NCBI RefSeq assembly: GCF_023016155.1
Contig: NZ_JALKBG010000005.1
Span: 62,001 to 126,000 of the forward strand
DNA: 64,000 nucleotides
Reading direction: 5' to 3'
Source of the DNA: Aliiroseovarius sp. F20344
Lineage (GTDB): Bacteria; Pseudomonadota; Alphaproteobacteria; Rhodobacterales; Rhodobacteraceae
The position numbers were made by a program, and so were the translations under genes. Positions 4,465 to 11,925 of this stretch are shown one piece after another; position 1 is the stretch's first letter, and every line of letters starts with the position of its first letter. Under the pieces are notes generated by a model. It did not search any database and had not been told where the DNA came from. It saw only the letters and a program-made list of their open reading frames with translations.

Positions 4465-5948
4465 AAACGCCCCAGATACTGGTCCCATAAATTGTTGCGC
4501 AAAACGAGGTCAGGATCGACCTCGCGTTTCGCACGTACGAATTGGCCTACATTCGCATAGGCATCAGAGAGTTGTTCTAACCGCGCATGTGGTCGATAGG
4601 GCAAGTAATAGGCCCCGCCGACCTCTACAACACGATCAATTAGTTCTTGTGTCATTCGCGTCATGTCCGCCTCGGCCCGCTGTGTCAGCTCTTGGCTGAA
4701 TGACATGACGGCCGCAATGCGCGGTTCTGGTGCAAAAGACAAAACACTTTGGTCGTCCTGCGCTACGTATCGAAGCGTCACATTCAGAAACTCTTGATAC
4801 GAGGCAGGAATGACCTCTTGGCAGGCGCCCACGAAAGCATCGAACGCGTCAAAGCCGACAAAGTGCTCGTGCAAAATGTCAGTCCGATCGGGGTTTCGAT
4901 CATCCAACGTGACAACAGGTTCGTTGATCAGTGAGTTTCGCGTGACATCCCCGCCGCCAAGTGCCGGCCCCACGCTGGTTTCATTCCACCACCGAAATGA
5001 TTTGAACGTCTCATTGCCCAACTGCGCACGGTAAAGGCGGCTGGCGGCGTGGGCCATCCAGCCTGAGCTCGGTGCAACGGGCAGGTCGGATTGGTCATCG
5101 GTCTCGCGATAGGTGACCAGCAGGGCTTTCTCGAAGAACGTCTCGCGTTCGACGTTCAAGCGCCCATAGGCCATGGTGACTGAAGGGTCTTCGACGGCCT
5201 TTTTAAATGCAGCGGCAAATTCACTTGTCGCCATCACCTTAAAGCTGGGGGAAAGGCGCGTGTTCTTCACCATCTCGATTTCCATATCGATGATGACGCC
5301 AATCAGCCCGTATCCCCCCATTGCGAGGTTGAACAGGTCGGCATTTTCGGTTTTCGAACATGTCACCAGATCGCCGGACGGCAAGATCATCCGCAACGAA
5401 CGAACGGTTGACCCCATCGGACCAAAGGGGACGGGCCAGCCATGTGCGTTCACGGAATATGTGGCCGCCAGCCCAAAGTCGTTGTTGGATTGCATAACTT
5501 TCGGTGAGAAGCCCGCTGGATCAAGCGCGGCAATCACATCGGACCAACGTGCGCCTGCATGCGCGCGATAGGCCAATGCGGTGCTGTCCAGCTCAACCTC
5601 TGTGTTGTCAAAGGTGATTGCTGTCCCGTCGCGGGGAATGGCTTGGCCACCCATGGAATGCCGCGCTGCACCAACATTAAGCGGGCGGTTTTCGGATTTT
5701 GCCTCGGTAATTTCGCGGCGGATGGCGTCAATCAAATTGTCATTAGCAGAGCTGCTGAGGCGTAGGTGCTTGTTGATCGGCGTTGCCGACAATCCGCTTG
5801 CGTCATTCAGTATCTTGTCACCAGCGGGAACAACTATGCGGCGGGTTCCCTCATAGACGGGTAATTGCGCACGGATCAAGGAAGACATTACCCAGCCTGC
5901 GGCACCTCCAGCACCAATAAGCGCCGCGCGCCGTGTGAAATTCTTCAT
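4461..5948 (-). CDS. Tat-exported FAD-linked oxidoreductase (PCMH / aldonolactone-oxidase type)
   Basis: A 495-residue flavoprotein. The N-terminus carries a twin-arginine-like signal (TRRAALIGAGGAAG). A PCMH-type FAD-binding domain follows (about 60-250), containing GAARHSMGGQAI; His97 in this motif is at the position where related enzymes attach FAD covalently. The C-terminus resembles the aldonolactone oxidase domain. Substrate unknown. It is the first gene of a four-gene minus-strand operon and is divergent from the exosortase cassette, so the box array between them could affect both. Confidence 0.75.
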   Translation of the reverse strand: MKNFTRRAALIGAGGAAGWVMSSLIRAQLPVYEGTRRIVVPAGDKILNDASGLSATPINKHLRLSSSANDNLIDAIRREITEAKSENRPLNVGAARHSMGGQAIPRDGTAITFDNTEVELDSTALAYRAHAGARWSDVIAALDPAGFSPKVMQSNNDFGLAATYSVNAHGWPVPFGPMGSTVRSLRMILPSGDLVTCSKTENADLFNLAMGGYGLIGVIIDMEIEMVKNTRLSPSFKVMATSEFAAAFKKAVEDPSVTMAYGRLNVERETFFEKALLVTYRETDDQSDLPVAPSSGWMAHAASRLYRAQLGNETFKSFRWWNETSVGPALGGGDVTRNSLINEPVVTLDDRNPDRTDILHEHFVGFDAFDAFVGACQEVIPASYQEFLNVTLRYVAQDDQSVLSFAPEPRIAAVMSFSQELTQRAEADMTRMTQELIDRVVEVGGAYYLPYRPHARLEQLSDAYANVGQFVRAKREVDPDLVLRNNLWDQYLGRL

Positions 5949-6041: not shown

Positions 6042-6093
6042 CTGCACATTTCCTGCACACCTTGCAGCGCTGATCTGCACAACTGTCTGCGCA
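6042..6093 (+). promoter_or_regulatory. Phased direct-repeat array (Pho-box-like response-regulator sites)
   Basis: Three exact CTGCACA copies start at 6042, 6053 and 6075, that is, at spacings of 11 and 22 bases; a degenerate CTGCGCA starts at 6087. Seven-base direct repeats separated by four bases are the typical layout of OmpR/PhoB-family binding sites. The array ends about 10 bases before the exosortase start, and an OmpR/PhoB-type regulator is encoded in the same operon, so it is a good candidate for its autoregulatory site. It lies in the 155-base gap shared with the divergent FAD oxidoreductase gene. Confidence 0.6.
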
Positions 6094-6103
6094 AAACGAT
6101 GGC

Positions 6104-7525
6104 ATGGAACAAAAACGCGATACCCTGTTGTGGATTGGCCTGTCGACTGCATCGGCTCTTCTGGCCATCGAACCCTTGCGATGGCTGATTACCAGTTGGC
6201 GCGATCCCTCATACCAATCCAATGGCGGATTGTATGGCGCTTTGATTATCGGGCTTGCAGTCCTGTCCCTTTGGAGCTCCCGTCCAAATGGCCCTGACAC
6301 GCGGGGGCGCGTTTTTGTTCTATTCCTTTTTGCTGCCGGGGTCCGGCTTGCGGGTCAGATGCTCGCCATCAACATCCTAAGCGCGTTGGCGCTGGCGATT
6401 GATGTGTTTGCACTGGCGACGTTCCTGCGGCTGGATCAGCGCCGCATTGCGCTTTCGCCGCTTTGGCTTTCAGTGTTCTTCCTGTTCTGCTTGCCATTGG
6501 CCCCCATCCTTCAACGCGTCGCAGGCTTTCCGCTTCAGATGATGTCAGCCGACGTTGCCTGCGCGATGTTGTCCCCGTTCTTTGCGGACCTGACTTGCGA
6601 GGGCGTGCGCCTGCAACTGAACGGCGTGGATGTCTTGGTAGACCTTCCCTGTTCTGGCGCGTCCGGCCTTCTGTTGATGGTCAGCCTCTGGGCCTTCATT
6701 AATGTCCTGTTTCGTCCCGCATTCTTCCATGCGCTGCTTGCGGGTGTTGTGATCGCTCTGGCCACTGTGATTGGCAATGGTGTGCGGATTACGCTTCTTG
6801 CGGCTGGGCTTGGCCAAGGCGTGAATACGATGGAACCGGGCCTGCATTCAACAATCGGGCTTGTGTCATTAGCGCTGGTTGCCCTGCCCGTTGTGGTGCT
6901 CTACCGCCCGCAACCTGCCAAAGCCCGTGGGCATTGGTTGCCTGCTTTCAGATTGCCGCGCGTGCTACATTTTCCTATCGCTTGTTTGGCGCTTGTGATG
7001 GCCGTAGCCGTGGTTAACGCACCGCGCACGCCGTTGGATCGGTCCGATACCGTGGCGCAGATAAATTTGCCCGGCCAGCTTCTTGGGAAACCCGCGCAGG
7101 CCGTGCCGCTGAGCGCAACTGAGAAGCTGTATTTCGCAAGCTATGGTGGCTTTGCGCAGAAGGCGCAGTTTGGCCCCATGGGATTGAATGTGGTGCGCAC
7201 ATCATCGCCCTTGCGGCACCTTCATTCACCGGCAACCTGCCTGCTTGGGATGGGCTACGACGTTCGCTTTCTGGGCACGCGGTTCGATCCGCTTCCCACA
7301 TCCGTTTACGAAGCCACGTCGCCTGATGGGCAGGTCTGGACCGTCGCTGTCAGCTTTGTCTCGCAAGACGGCGCGCAGACCGCAGGTGTCGGCGAAGCTG
7401 TCTGGAGCTGGCTGAACGGCTCTTCACGCGTGTGGCAATCCATCCAACGCATCACCCCAAAATCCATGCCCGAGCCCGAGCGTGCTGCCTATGAGCAGGC
7501 GGCCCTTGCAGCTTTGGACCTTTGA
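6104..7525 (+). CDS. Dedicated exosortase (XrtT-like) with EpsI-like C-terminal region
   Basis: A 473-residue integral membrane transpeptidase-like protein of the exosortase family, which processes C-terminal PEP-CTERM-type sorting tails. Eight or more transmembrane helices occupy residues 10-270. The family catalytic triad is visible: Cys183 in PCSGASG, Arg228 in NGVRI and His248 in GLHST. After a further membrane segment, residues 300-460 form a soluble region resembling the EpsI/DUF3485 domain found fused to some exosortases. The next gene, 26 bases away, encodes the evident substrate with a PEP-type tail, and a two-component system follows. This resembles the single-target exosortase class; the label XrtT is from memory and tentative. 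Confidence 0.85.
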   Translation: MEQKRDTLLWIGLSTASALLAIEPLRWLITSWRDPSYQSNGGLYGALIIGLAVLSLWSSRPNGPDTRGRVFVLFLFAAGVRLAGQMLAINILSALALAIDVFALATFLRLDQRRIALSPLWLSVFFLFCLPLAPILQRVAGFPLQMMSADVACAMLSPFFADLTCEGVRLQLNGVDVLVDLPCSGASGLLLMVSLWAFINVLFRPAFFHALLAGVVIALATVIGNGVRITLLAAGLGQGVNTMEPGLHSTIGLVSLALVALPVVVLYRPQPAKARGHWLPAFRLPRVLHFPIACLALVMAVAVVNAPRTPLDRSDTVAQINLPGQLLGKPAQAVPLSATEKLYFASYGGFAQKAQFGPMGLNVVRTSSPLRHLHSPATCLLGMGYDVRFLGTRFDPLPTSVYEATSPDGQVWTVAVSFVSQDGAQTAGVGEAVWSWLNGSSRVWQSIQRITPKSMPEPERAAYEQAALAALDL

Positions 7526-7551
7526 CCATTGTTCGACAGAAGGAGTTTCCC

Positions 7552-9675
7552 ATGTCCATCACAAGACCACGCCGATCACCGCATAGTTTTAGCCGCAGAT
7601 TTCCCCGGATCAATCGCGCGACGCTGCTGATTGTAGCCGTGGCCTTTGCGATCTCGTTGCCAATTTCGGCGTTTGCTCAAGCGGTATTGGATGACGTCGC
7701 GGGGCGGGTGATTGCGCAGGTGAATGGCGAAACAGTTGAGCTGCCCATGCTGGACAGCGCTTACAAGGTCAATATCGAGGGCGACATGGCAACGGTTGAG
7801 CTGCGTCAGGTTTTTTCGAACCCCTCCGAGGTGCCGTTAGAGGCAGAATATCTATTCCCGCTGAACCAGAATGCGGCCGTATTCGGGATGACCATGGAGG
7901 TCGGGGACGAGATTGTGCAGGCCGTAATCCGCGAAAAAGCAACCGCGGAAGCCGAGTACAAACAAGCCGCATCCGAGGGCAAAGCAGCTGCGTTGCTGAC
8001 CCAACACCGCCCGAACATGTTCACTCAGAAGATCGCCAATTTGATGCCGGGTCTGCCGGTCGAGGTCACGCTGAAATACGTGCAAATGGTGCCCAAGGTA
8101 GACGGGCAGTTTGAGCTGGTTGTGCCGATGATCGTTGGGCCGCGCTATGAAAGCCCGGCTTCGAGCGATGAAGAGCGCACCTCCGACCTCGACGGGCCTG
8201 TGCAGAACGCCACTTGGTCGGTCAGCCCCGTGCCTGCATATCCAGCTGTGGCCGGTTTGGACCTGCCCAAAAACATCCTATCGGAACGCGTTTCGCTGGA
8301 CCTGAACATGGTCGCCGGGGTTGAGATGTCGCAATTTGCAAGCCCAACGCATCCACTGGACATCGTCGAAACACAAGCCGGTCTAAGCGCTCAGTTTTCG
8401 CAGGGAAAGGTCATGGACAACAAAGACTTGATCCTGCGCTACATGCTGGGCGGTGACTCGTTGCAGGCAGCAACGCTGACCCATCATGACGAACGTGGTG
8501 GCTTCCTGTCAGTCATGATCGAACCGCCCGCCATGCCTGATGAAACCACAGCCACCCCGCGCGAGCTGGTTTTTGTGTTGGACACCTCAGGCTCAATGTC
8601 CGGGCAACCGTTGGCTGCAAGCAAACGATTCATGGACGCCGCCCTAAAGGGTCTGCGCCCCGACGACTATTTCCGGATCATCCCATTTTCCAGAACCGCC
8701 CGGCATTTCGCGGAAGACGCTACCCCAGCAACCACTTTCAACGTTGAAGCAGGCCGCAAGTTCGTCTCGCGCCTATCTGCCAGCGGCGGGACCGAGATCG
8801 ACAGGGCCATCCGCACGGCCTTCGCAACCGACAACCCTGACAACACAATGCGCATCGTGGTTTTCCTATCTGATGGATATATCGGGGACGAGGCTACGGT
8901 GCTGCGCACCATTCGTGAACAAATCGGGCAATCGCGTATTTACGCGTTTGGGATCGGAAGCTCGACCAACAGGTATCTGCTGGATGCCATGGCAGATGAG
9001 GGTCGCGGATACGCACGCTATGTGGGCTTAGACGAAGACGCCATGGACGTGGCCGAGGTTATGGCCGCGAACCTGAAGACACCCCTTTTGACAGACATTG
9101 AAATTGACTGGGGTGATCTGGAAGTCACCGATATGACGCCTTCGCGCCTGCCGGACCTTTTCGCGGGAAGCAGTTTGCGTGTCTATGCACGCTACAAAGG
9201 CAGTGATCAGGGGCAGGTTACATTGAAAGGCCTTGTAAAGGGTCGGAAGGCGGAGATGCCTGTGAAACTGATCCTGTCAGATCAGGAAGGTGAAGCGGCA
9301 CTTCCATTGATCTGGGCACGCAATCAGATTTCAACACTCGATCGCCGCATTGCTGTGCGTGATCAGGCGGACGCTGCTGACAAGGAAATCACCCGGCTGG
9401 GGTTAGAGTTCTCACTGCAAACCCGCAACACTTCATTCGTCGCAGTGTCTCAGAAAGTGGTGAACACATCTGGGAAAGCTGCGAAACAAGCCAGCGTTCC
9501 GTTGCCGATGGTATCGGGCGTGTCCAAGAATGCCTATCCGCAGGGGTTCGCAGGATCATCATCGCCCGAGCCGGAAGCTATGCTTGGAATGATCATGATC
9601 GCTGTGATGACACTGTTGGGGCTGCGACCCCGGCGCAAAGTGGGGGGTCTGAGGGATGATCCACAACCAAGTTAG
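7552..9675 (+). CDS. VIT/VWA-domain surface protein with PEP-CTERM-like sorting tail
   Basis: A 707-residue exported protein. The order is a basic N-terminus and signal segment (to about residue 42), a VIT domain (about 50-180) and a von Willebrand A domain from about 337 with the MIDAS motif DTSGS at 344-348. A C-terminal sorting signal follows: Pro-Glu-Pro at 672-674, a hydrophobic helix to about 691, then RPRRK. This tripartite tail is what exosortases recognise. The start is the ATG at 7552 with AGAAGGAG seven bases upstream. The family resembles the VIT/VWA targets of dedicated marine sortase systems, but here the processing enzyme is the exosortase just upstream. Confidence 0.87.
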   Translation: MSITRPRRSPHSFSRRFPRINRATLLIVAVAFAISLPISAFAQAVLDDVAGRVIAQVNGETVELPMLDSAYKVNIEGDMATVELRQVFSNPSEVPLEAEYLFPLNQNAAVFGMTMEVGDEIVQAVIREKATAEAEYKQAASEGKAAALLTQHRPNMFTQKIANLMPGLPVEVTLKYVQMVPKVDGQFELVVPMIVGPRYESPASSDEERTSDLDGPVQNATWSVSPVPAYPAVAGLDLPKNILSERVSLDLNMVAGVEMSQFASPTHPLDIVETQAGLSAQFSQGKVMDNKDLILRYMLGGDSLQAATLTHHDERGGFLSVMIEPPAMPDETTATPRELVFVLDTSGSMSGQPLAASKRFMDAALKGLRPDDYFRIIPFSRTARHFAEDATPATTFNVEAGRKFVSRLSASGGTEIDRAIRTAFATDNPDNTMRIVVFLSDGYIGDEATVLRTIREQIGQSRIYAFGIGSSTNRYLLDAMADEGRGYARYVGLDEDAMDVAEVMAANLKTPLLTDIEIDWGDLEVTDMTPSRLPDLFAGSSLRVYARYKGSDQGQVTLKGLVKGRKAEMPVKLILSDQEGEAALPLIWARNQISTLDRRIAVRDQADAADKEITRLGLEFSLQTRNTSFVAVSQKVVNTSGKAAKQASVPLPMVSGVSKNAYPQGFAGSSSPEPEAMLGMIMIAVMTLLGLRPRRKVGGLRDDPQPS

Positions 9676-9712
9676 ACTGGACAACGGCTCTGCCCCTTGC
9701 AAGACATCAAAC

Positions 9713-10390
9713 ATGGTTACGCATATTCTGATCGTAGACGATGATCCCAAGATCCGCGACATCACCCGTATCGCCGTGGAAGCTGCCGGAATGCGCACAA
9801 CCGAGGCCGCGAACGGTGAAATCGCATTGACCCATATCGGGCGCGAGAAAATCGATCTGGTGGTGTTGGATATTGGTATGCCGAATATGGACGGGTTCGA
9901 TTGCTGCAAAGCGATCAGGGCGCGATCAGATGTGCCGGTCCTGTTTCTGACCGCGCGCGATGATGAGATCGATAGGGTTCTGGGCTTTCAATTGGGGGCG
10001 GATGATTTCGTCCCCAAACCCTTCAGCCCGCGCGAGCTTGTGCTGCGGATCAAGGCGATCTTATCGCGCGCAAGTGCGGCCACCCGGCGCCAGCATTACG
10101 GCGAATTGTCGTTGGATGCGGCGGGGCATGTTTGCCAAGTGGCCGGGCAGGCGCTGGACCTGACCGCAACTGAATTTCAGCTTCTGGCAAGCTTATTGGC
10201 CCGGCCGGATCACGTGCATGACCGCAATCAGTTGATACAGGCCATATACGGAGCGAATTCAACCATGTCGGGCCGCACAATCGACAGCCATGTTCGCAAC
10301 ATACGCGCCAAGGCTGCGCAGGCGGGGTGTGATGATGTCATTGTGACCGTTCATGGCGTCGGTATTAAGCTTGGGCCATGCAACACGTGA
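9713..10390 (+). CDS. OmpR/PhoB-family response regulator of the exosortase cassette
   Basis: A 225-residue regulator with a receiver domain (acidic pair in ILIVDDD, phosphoacceptor Asp53 in VVLDIGMPNMDG, Lys102 in VPKPF) and a C-terminal winged-helix DNA-binding domain. The receiver begins at the ATG at 9713; an in-frame ATG at 9656, overlapping the target gene's end, would add 19 residues without family resemblance. The kinase gene overlaps its 3' end. Likely target: the phased CTGCACA array before the exosortase gene (inference). Confidence 0.87.
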   Translation: MVTHILIVDDDPKIRDITRIAVEAAGMRTTEAANGEIALTHIGREKIDLVVLDIGMPNMDGFDCCKAIRARSDVPVLFLTARDDEIDRVLGFQLGADDFVPKPFSPRELVLRIKAILSRASAATRRQHYGELSLDAAGHVCQVAGQALDLTATEFQLLASLLARPDHVHDRNQLIQAIYGANSTMSGRTIDSHVRNIRAKAAQAGCDDVIVTVHGVGIKLGPCNT

Positions 10391-11925
10391 CGCGTATTCA
10401 CCAAAAATGGCGCCCTTCGATGGCTCTGGTGGTGGTGTTCATCTGTGTTGCACTGGTGTCGATCCCACTTGCCGCGATGCTGACCGTGCAGTTGACGTCC
10501 AATCAGTTCGTAAGAGAAACAGAGCAATCGCTTGTGAAGCAAGGCGCCATCTACGCCGAGGTCTACCGCACTCAGTTCGAGACATTGGAAGGCCCCGAAA
10601 TCGGCTCTATCCCCGACAAGGATGTTTTGGCGTTCTGGAATGCGTCCCTTCATCCGCTGTCTTCCAAGATTGATGTCCGCAATCATCCGGTTCTGCCGCC
10701 TTTGCCTGAGGGCGATCTGGTTAAAGCGCGTGTTGATCCCAGACACGACACAATCATGCCAACCCTTGGCGAGCTGGCCCAATTCGCAGGAAAAACCACG
10801 CTGGCGGGCGTCATTTTTCTGGATCATCAGGGGGTCGGTGTTGGGGAAGCGGGGTTGCGCAATATCTCGACCCTGCCCGAGGTTAAGGCGGCGCTGGCAG
10901 GAGAGGTCGGGGTCGCACTGCGCGCCCGTGACGATGACTATAGTCGCCATCCTTTAAACTCGATCAGTCGTGACACAGGGTTTCGCGTGTTCGTGGCCTA
11001 TCCGGTCTTGTCCAAGGATCGCGTCATTGGCGCGGTTCTGTTATCCCGCACGCCGCTTAGCCTTCGAAAGTTTGTCTTCCGCGAGCGCGATCCGTTGATG
11101 ATCATGGGAATCTTCACCCTGTCGGGGGCTTTACTGCTTGGCTTCCTTTTGTTGCGACTCATGTCGCGCCCCGTACGCGGGCTGCGCGATGAGGCGCGGG
11201 CAATTGCCGCGGGTGAAAAGCCCAAGTCGGAGCCTTTGCGACACTACGGTATGCGCGAACTAGCGGATCTTGGTGAAAGTATGCTGTCGATGGCTGATAC
11301 CTTGGATCAAAGATCGCAAGAGATTGCGACCTATACGGACCATGTCACCCATGAACTGAAATCTCCGGTCACCTCGATATCGGGTGCTGCTGAGCTGCTT
11401 CAAAGCGAAGAAATGAGTCCAGAAAACCGCGCCAAATTGCTTGGAAATATCCACAGCGAAAGCGAGCGGATGAACACCTTGCTAACCCGACTGCGCGAGA
11501 TGTCTCAGCTACGTCAGGAAGCGCAAAAAGGACCTGGGTCGCTGCCGACGATGCTGCCGGATCTTGACGGTCTGACCATTCGAATTGTCGAGCCCAGTGA
11601 AGACGAGCTTCCGCTTTCGAATGATCATGGCGAAATCATACTTCTGCACATGGCGCAGAATGCTTTGGCTCACGGCGCGCAGAATTTGGAACTGCAGTAT
11701 CAGAATGGGGTTCTGCGAATTTCTGATGACGGCGAAGGCATTTCGGAAAATGATACCGCAAAACTCGCTGATCCTTTCTTCACCACACGTCGCGCGCAGG
11801 GGGGAACCGGGATGGGGTTGGCCATAGTCTCGGCCCTTTTAGAGATCTATGGTGCGCGTTTGCACATCACGCCCCACAGCTCCGCTTCGAAAACGGTTGG
11901 CGCTGAGTTTGAGATACGCTTTTAG
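10378..11925 (+). CDS. Sensor histidine kinase of the exosortase cassette
   Basis: A 515-residue membrane kinase. It has two transmembrane segments (about 16-38 and 240-262) flanking a periplasmic sensor region of roughly 200 residues, then a HAMP linker and a dimerisation domain with phosphoacceptor His325 in THELKSP. The ATPase domain carries N (MAQNALAHGA), G1 (DDGEGI) and G2 (GGTGMGLAI) boxes. The start overlaps the response-regulator stop by 13 bases. The four-gene order enzyme / target / regulator / kinase parallels the proteobacterial dedicated sortase systems, suggesting the kinase senses envelope state or the target protein; this is inferred. Confidence 0.87.
   Translation: MQHVTRIHQKWRPSMALVVVFICVALVSIPLAAMLTVQLTSNQFVRETEQSLVKQGAIYAEVYRTQFETLEGPEIGSIPDKDVLAFWNASLHPLSSKIDVRNHPVLPPLPEGDLVKARVDPRHDTIMPTLGELAQFAGKTTLAGVIFLDHQGVGVGEAGLRNISTLPEVKAALAGEVGVALRARDDDYSRHPLNSISRDTGFRVFVAYPVLSKDRVIGAVLLSRTPLSLRKFVFRERDPLMIMGIFTLSGALLLGFLLLRLMSRPVRGLRDEARAIAAGEKPKSEPLRHYGMRELADLGESMLSMADTLDQRSQEIATYTDHVTHELKSPVTSISGAAELLQSEEMSPENRAKLLGNIHSESERMNTLLTRLREMSQLRQEAQKGPGSLPTMLPDLDGLTIRIVEPSEDELPLSNDHGEIILLHMAQNALAHGAQNLELQYQNGVLRISDDGEGISENDTAKLADPFFTTRRAQGGTGMGLAIVSALLEIYGARLHITPHSSASKTVGAEFEIRF

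Follow-up and report, generated by a model that had tools for sequence, protein, structure and literature searches.

The stretch analysed here (the window) comprises 64,000 nucleotides of Aliiroseovarius sp. F20344, positions 62,001 to 126,000 of contig NZ_JALKBG010000005.1, and carries at 6104–11925 four genes for an exosortase, a VIT/VWA protein, a response regulator and a histidine kinase. The block is probably a dedicated exosortase T (XrtT) cassette under the control of a two-component system of the CreB/CreC type. In favour of the Cre-type reading, the repeat found before xrtT also stands before creD in two relatives, and the cre/blr tag stands before the target in three of four loci of the sister enzyme exosortase Q (XrtQ). 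By comparison across loci, the four genes form a conserved unit with a single sorting tail and a conserved upstream repeat; co-transcription, cleavage, the anchor, DNA binding, the signal and the ligand of the VIT/VWA protein are what we infer from these comparisons.

In the proposed mechanism, the CreC-like kinase would sense an envelope condition, the CreB-like regulator would bind the CTGCACA repeats close upstream of xrtT, and all four genes would share one transcript. After export, the C-terminal helix and basic tail of the VIT/VWA protein would retain it in the inner membrane. XrtT, acting through Cys183/Arg228/His248, would then cut this target near Ser-Pro672-Glu-Pro and pass it to a putative anchor at the surface.

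The four-gene cassette and its recurrence

All four genes lie on the + strand, and their adjoining frames overlap or touch. They were xrtT at 6104–7525 (473 aa), the target gene, the regulator gene at 9656–10390 (244 aa, probable start 9713) and the kinase gene at 10378–11925 (515 aa). The target frame runs from 7522 to 9675 (717 aa) when the TTG start of the open reading frame (ORF) list is used, and from 7552 to 9675 (707 aa) from the likelier ATG. Pfam assigned Response_reg and Trans_reg_C domains to the OmpR/PhoB-type regulator; in the membrane sensor kinase, HisKA and HATPase scored over their cut-offs and HAMP just under. An earlier reading made from the letters alone (the sequence-only reading) had described a tight, self-contained block of exosortase, target, OmpR-type regulator and histidine kinase. 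The ORFs, the Pfam and NCBIfam matches and the conservation described below confirmed this description.

Both the set of four genes and their order were preserved in 13 of the 15 named relatives compared, and the remaining two loci were cut by contig ends. Flanking proteins of more than 45% identity were common only within two near-identical pairs when the window and 14 named loci were compared, the exception being one aldehyde dehydrogenase shared, at different positions, by the window and L038. Because the genes recur together without shared neighbours, the block is, as judged by this comparison, a self-contained module of exactly these four genes. In the kinase gene of one metagenome bin (L041, from 12175), an in-frame stop was observed at residue 221.

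The distribution of XrtT was patchy: among 292 genomes searched in the order, 12 gave a score over the cut-off, and 2 of 21 genomes of the genus had XrtT; the gene to the left of the cassette was found within the genus in its own genome only (1/21 at E ≤ 1e-60). Four distant alphaproteobacterial genomes also encoded XrtT. The gene order was the same in L108 and L177 and was regulator-kinase-enzyme-target in L109, while the 10-kb contig of L110 carried enzyme and target with neither a regulator nor a kinase next to them. Plasmid carriage was considered and dropped, as XrtT had no match among 72,556 plasmid records. A common insertion site was likewise set aside, since the flanks differ among loci.

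Exosortase T

XrtT matched NF033770 over its full length (positions 1–472 of 472) with 666 bits against a cut-off of 250, and Pfam Exosortase_EpsH with 71 bits. It was the sole exosortase found in its own genome when three models were searched. The Cys183/Arg228/His248 triad, which had been called complete, was present and proved invariant both in 15 close homologues and in a 17-row alignment that included the 4 distant XrtT proteins. The enzyme is thus already named in the databases and is not a new family. With its whole-length match and intact triad it showed no difference from exosortase T, and the name of the model is silent on the target, the operator and the Cre link described here.

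The C-terminal domain of XrtT begins at about residue 300. XrtT looks like a fusion of an exosortase with this domain, because its C-terminal part occurs as a separate ORF in two XrtQ loci. These ORFs lie beside exosortase Q at 4869–5789 (− strand) of L180 and 9974–10510 (+ strand) of L181, and neither had a Pfam match; in a third XrtQ locus, L178, the match to the C-terminal part continued within one frame. A Pfam search of the corresponding region of xrtT (7007–7522) gave no match. The domain was also considered as EpsI, a reading that was rejected because the whole protein had no match to an EpsI model at E ≤ 1 in Pfam or NCBIfam. No solved relative of XrtT was found at E ≤ 1, and the predicted structure had a predicted local distance difference test score (pLDDT) of 52.7.

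The presumed only target and its predicted sorting tail

The target contained a VIT domain (110 bits) and a VWA domain (69 bits) behind a signal-like N-terminal segment, and was conserved in 15 loci. Its predicted sorting tail (9544–9636, + strand) consists of GFAGSSSPEP, a hydrophobic stretch and RPRR. The alignment of 15 tails showed the same short Pro-Glu-Pro motif, hydrophobic helix and basic end, and Pro672-Glu-Pro674, numbered from the ATG at 7552, was invariant in all of them. A VIT/VWA protein with a PEP-type tail and a proline at position 672, as the sequence-only reading had it, was therefore found. As for agreement with PEP-CTERM models, the layout stood, and the model match did not: the generic model TIGR02595, searched against the own genome at E ≤ 10, missed the tail and returned one unrelated 25-aa frame.

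A model built on the tail itself gave a single match in the own genome at E ≤ 1, located in the target (E 1e-19). Each of 12 XrtT genomes gave one convincing match (E 3e-20 to 4e-7), always on the XrtT contig just past XrtT, that is, in the neighbouring target; the next-best match anywhere had E 0.03. No additional tailed protein appeared in the own genome, so the suggestion of a single-target system held as far as the tail model sees, given that tails of another type would escape both it and TIGR02595.

It might be argued from the failure of TIGR02595 that the tail is a membrane anchor only, is never cut, and that XrtT acts on something else. We consider this very improbable. The invariant PEP within a Pro-Glu-Pro, hydrophobic and basic layout, and the presence of one such tail next to XrtT in each of the 12 genomes, speak for a sorting signal, as does the fact that homologous targets next to a sortase have different ends. 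We return here to the reading in which XrtT would cut the tail of this one protein. The VWA domain retained DTSGS, a motif that contributes to a metal-dependent ligand site, and the target showed a resemblance to PARP4 and to the inter-alpha-trypsin inhibitor heavy chains; adhesion or ligand capture would be our guess at its surface role. A variant tail, SSTPEPQT or STHEPQT (L058–L061), was seen in the genera of loci L005, L010, L012 and L015, together with a decayed xrtT operator.

A conserved repeat before xrtT and its occurrence before creD

A triple direct repeat, CTGCACA-N4-CTGCACA-N15-CTGCACA, was found at 6042–6081 (+ strand), its ends lying 62 and 23 nt upstream of the xrtT start codon, and is proposed as the operator of the CreB-like regulator. 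This long pattern occurred once in the window and in none of 100 shuffles, and once in the own genome, at xrtT. CreB/BlrA is reported to bind the cre/blr tag TTCACN6TTCAC (PMC4689548, PMC3660660). This tag was absent before xrtT, where the window carries TGCACN6TGCAC, with the same spacing and one letter changed.

The operator was scored in 24 XrtT upstream regions, L011 (G240) being omitted as its upstream region was not resolved. The exact TGCAC-N6-TGCAC core preceded XrtT in 16 of 16 close loci (14 when near-identical pairs were counted once), although the neighbouring genes of these loci are unrelated, and it was present with 0–1 mismatch in 4 of 4 distant loci. It was decayed in L005, L010, L012 and L015. 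As controls, 25 of 52 sortase-type loci were used, with the open-frame start taken as the gene start; none of the 25 upstream regions came within 1 mismatch of the core.

In the 13 XrtT genomes scanned, 22 sites fitted the long pattern, compared with 2 for the reversed control, and a site lay directly at XrtT in 8 of the 13. In G174 (perfect match) and G264 (2 mismatches) a three-box site ended ∼50 nt before a gene identified as creD by Pfam scores of 406 and 385 bits, respectively; in both genomes the xrtT site itself was decayed. In one genome, G072, two operators were observed before xrtT (L217, at 1502 and 1938), 436 bases apart and with no listed ORF of at least 90 aa between them.

TGCACA arrays with 11-base spacing were also seen at L216 and L219 (G174), at L221, L224 and L226 (G235) and at L223 and L225 (G072), that of L216 preceding a deacetylase-like gene. 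These extra arrays may belong to another regulator or may mark more targets of the cassette regulator.

Cre likeness of the regulator and kinase

The best family of the regulator was CreB (NF008296, 214 bits; cut-off 273) and that of the kinase was CreC (NF008312, 158 bits; cut-off 356), with the next kinase family at 75 bits. CreB and CreC were the top families in all four XrtT systems scored. The divergences of enzyme and target across 11 loci tracked that of the kinase (r 0.86–0.90; L041, with its in-frame stop, and L036, which is cut, were omitted from the kinase alignment). A model of the kinase sensor fold was not used, as it had a pLDDT of 64.7, its best PDB match had E 0.03, and its PAS/Cache/GAF-like matches were weak.

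Compared with the CreBCD system of Escherichia coli, Pseudomonas and Aeromonas (BlrAB), the cassette shares the best-scoring regulator and kinase families, direct repeats with a period of 11, and, in two relatives, a creD gene under the cassette-type operator. It differs in its box, TGCAC instead of TTCAC, in a third box 22 bp on, in holding an exosortase and its target, and in regulator and kinase scores that fall under the cut-offs. In Pseudomonas aeruginosa, loss of PBP4 switches on CreBC and cefoxitin switches on creD (PMC2654508); since CreBC and creD respond in this way there, cell-wall stress would by analogy be the first candidate signal for the cassette kinase.

Several observations weigh against a Cre-type system. 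None of the four XrtT systems scored reached the curated cut-off for CreB or for CreC, and the margin of CreB over the next regulator family was just 15–26 bits. The one sortase-type pair scored, that of L182, had CreB (174 bits) and CreC (151 bits) as second-best families; some of the Cre likeness is therefore general, and the regulators of the XrtT and sortase branches may share an older CreBC-like source. Enzyme and target divergence did not clearly follow that of the regulator (r 0.40–0.43, with 84–88 of 999 permutations as high). The best repeat pair of L177 was weak, being equalled in 15 of 300 shuffles; 5 of the 13 XrtT genomes had no site at XrtT within 3 mismatches, and the scored upstream regions of four of these five were not better than shuffles. 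The creD gene stood under the operator in just 2 of 13 XrtT genomes, and no CreD relative was present in the window, outside which the own genome was not searched for creD. TGCACA arrays also occurred before unrelated genes in G072, G174 and G235, and a promoter and terminator scan of the cassette gave no signal above chance. Our confidence was lowered by the lean of the L182 regulators towards CreB/CreC and by the five XrtT genomes without a clear site.

These points could be taken to mean that the block is an ordinary one-target XrtT cassette whose private two-component system regulates only itself, its likeness to CreBC reflecting a shared OmpR-type branch and its signal being unrelated to Cre. 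The sub-cut-off scores, the TGCAC box and the single site in the own genome, at xrtT, with no CreD relative in the window, would all fit. The three-box operator before creD in two XrtT genomes would not, nor would the XrtQ systems described below, in which the cre/blr tag occurs unaltered and two loci also contain creB/creC; on balance we hold such a private system to be unlikely. It is less likely still that the kinase senses sorting itself, through unprocessed target or loss of the enzyme, as feedback on one pathway and not as an envelope response. Such feedback would agree with the correlated divergences of kinase, enzyme and target and with the joint recurrence of all four genes; it sits poorly with the two genomes in which this operator precedes creD and with the enzyme and target of L110, which have no adjacent regulator or kinase on their 10-kb contig. 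A CreB/CreC-type system in charge of the cassette is the reading retained below.

Sister exosortase Q systems

Outside the class, four genomes of the same phylum had a homologous target beside exosortase Q (NF012182; 335–397 bits, cut-off 270). Three of these loci (L179, L180 and L181) each had a single exact TTCACN6TTCAC immediately ahead of the target, and L178 had TCCACN6TCCAC instead. Just upstream on the same strand in L180 lay creB and creC, both over their cut-offs. The creB and creC of G993 were 74% identical to those of L180; its creD, also over the cut-off, was located ∼4.5 kb past creB/creC and pointed away from the target, the tag lying in the interval that separates the two. The surroundings of L178 and L181 contained nothing Cre-like.

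The XrtQ systems thus resemble the cassette in having a homologous target with a PEP-like tail beside an exosortase, and they take the sister side in the target tree. They differ in that the enzyme follows the target, that the C-terminal domain is a separate ORF in 2 of 4 loci, and that the exact TTCAC tag is present, with creBC or creD neighbours in two loci. We read the T and Q cassettes alike as probable Cre-type surface modules. It is tempting to go further and view them together as a branch of the Cre envelope response that has so far gone unnoticed, in which cell-wall stress would deploy one VIT/VWA protein through a private sorting enzyme, and in which the regulator and operator of the T branch would have drifted together from TTCAC to TGCAC. 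We put this wider proposal forward tentatively, as having somewhat less than an even chance of being right.

Comparison with marine dedicated sortase systems

A target homologue was present at E ≤ 1e-60 in 42 of 385 genomes of the class. The marine sortase was found in 37 of these 42. Of the five genomes without it, four were those with XrtT, and in the fifth the target reaches the edge of its contig. An exosortase was present as well in 12 of the 37, on another contig or at least 200 kb from the target. An exosortase at the target and a marine sortase were thus mutually exclusive in the genomes tested, and a TIGR03784 sortase had no match in the own genome (G000) at E ≤ 1e-5.

The cassette had been said to have the same enzyme-target-regulator-kinase order as the sortase systems, which was not the case. 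In 35 of 37 genomes the sortase gene followed the target gene on one and the same strand, the other two having the genes on separate contigs, and regulator and kinase were divergent from the target in the three sortase loci where they were seen (L182, L185 and L188). In L182 the regulator pair was TIGR03787/TIGR03785-like first, and not CreB/CreC. The analogy itself survives in part. The homologous VIT/VWA target (471 bits to TIGR03788, under the cut-off of 552, against 820 and 763 for the sortase-type targets of L112 and L182) and a single dedicated surface enzyme are shared with the marine system (TIGR03784, 03785, 03787, 03788). The enzyme family is unrelated, and the order of target and sortase, the tail at the end of the target and the families and, where seen, divergent orientation of regulator and kinase are different.

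In the target tree, the XrtT (19), XrtQ (4) and sortase-type (52) targets each occupied one branch side, with two changes in total. Among the 52 rows labelled as sortase-type, 36 had TIGR03784 in the genome and 15 had a sortase homologue just downstream (tblastn), and for G298 no sortase was found; a second tree omitted 12 near-duplicate, short or long rows. Bacterial family f91 holds both sortase and exosortase types. As each enzyme class forms one branch side, it is the enzyme partner and not the host that sorts the tree, as these sequences group. As to the idea that an exosortase has taken the place of the sortase, the tree shows one deep split instead of a local exchange; outgroup rooting, with long outgroup branches and a support of 77 for the key split, did not fix a direction for it. 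A Bacteroidota plasmid gene (L201, 5872–10566) in which a VIT/VWA region is joined to a SusC/RagA-type TonB-linked protein grouped with the XrtQ targets.

Neighbouring genes

The genes next to the block encode a flavin adenine dinucleotide (FAD) oxidase, a protein with a weak DUF4383 match and one without a match; further neighbours are an M56 peptidase, an ABC permease, two sarcosine-oxidase-like subunits, an AraC regulator and an aldehyde dehydrogenase. None is an exopolysaccharide (EPS) gene, and the lack of EPS genes nearby given in the sequence-only reading was borne out for these adjacent genes, the remainder of the 64 kb being unannotated. The M56 gene encodes a BlaR1-like membrane peptidase (1109–2242, − strand) and stands beside a BlaI/CopY-like repressor gene (2211–2603, − strand), 3.5 kb from the cassette.

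Implications

Exosortases commonly serve many targets, and little is known of what switches them on. The literature search, which left most subscription papers outside its scope, returned no paper joining CreBC with an exosortase and none combining exosortase, two-component, response regulator and von Willebrand; by the names exosortase T or XrtT, no relevant paper was found. The new part of the present analysis is the proposed link to a Cre-type response together with the repeat, neither of which figured in the sequence-only reading, the enzyme family being already known. The cassette appears as a unit of one enzyme, one substrate and one operator, with a predicted 40-base binding site. It also belongs to a natural experiment in which homologous targets fall to two membrane enzymes that are unrelated to each other, in some cases inside a single bacterial family (f91). 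If the Cre link is true, CreBC would gain an effector outside the inner membrane, and exosortases would gain a stress input.

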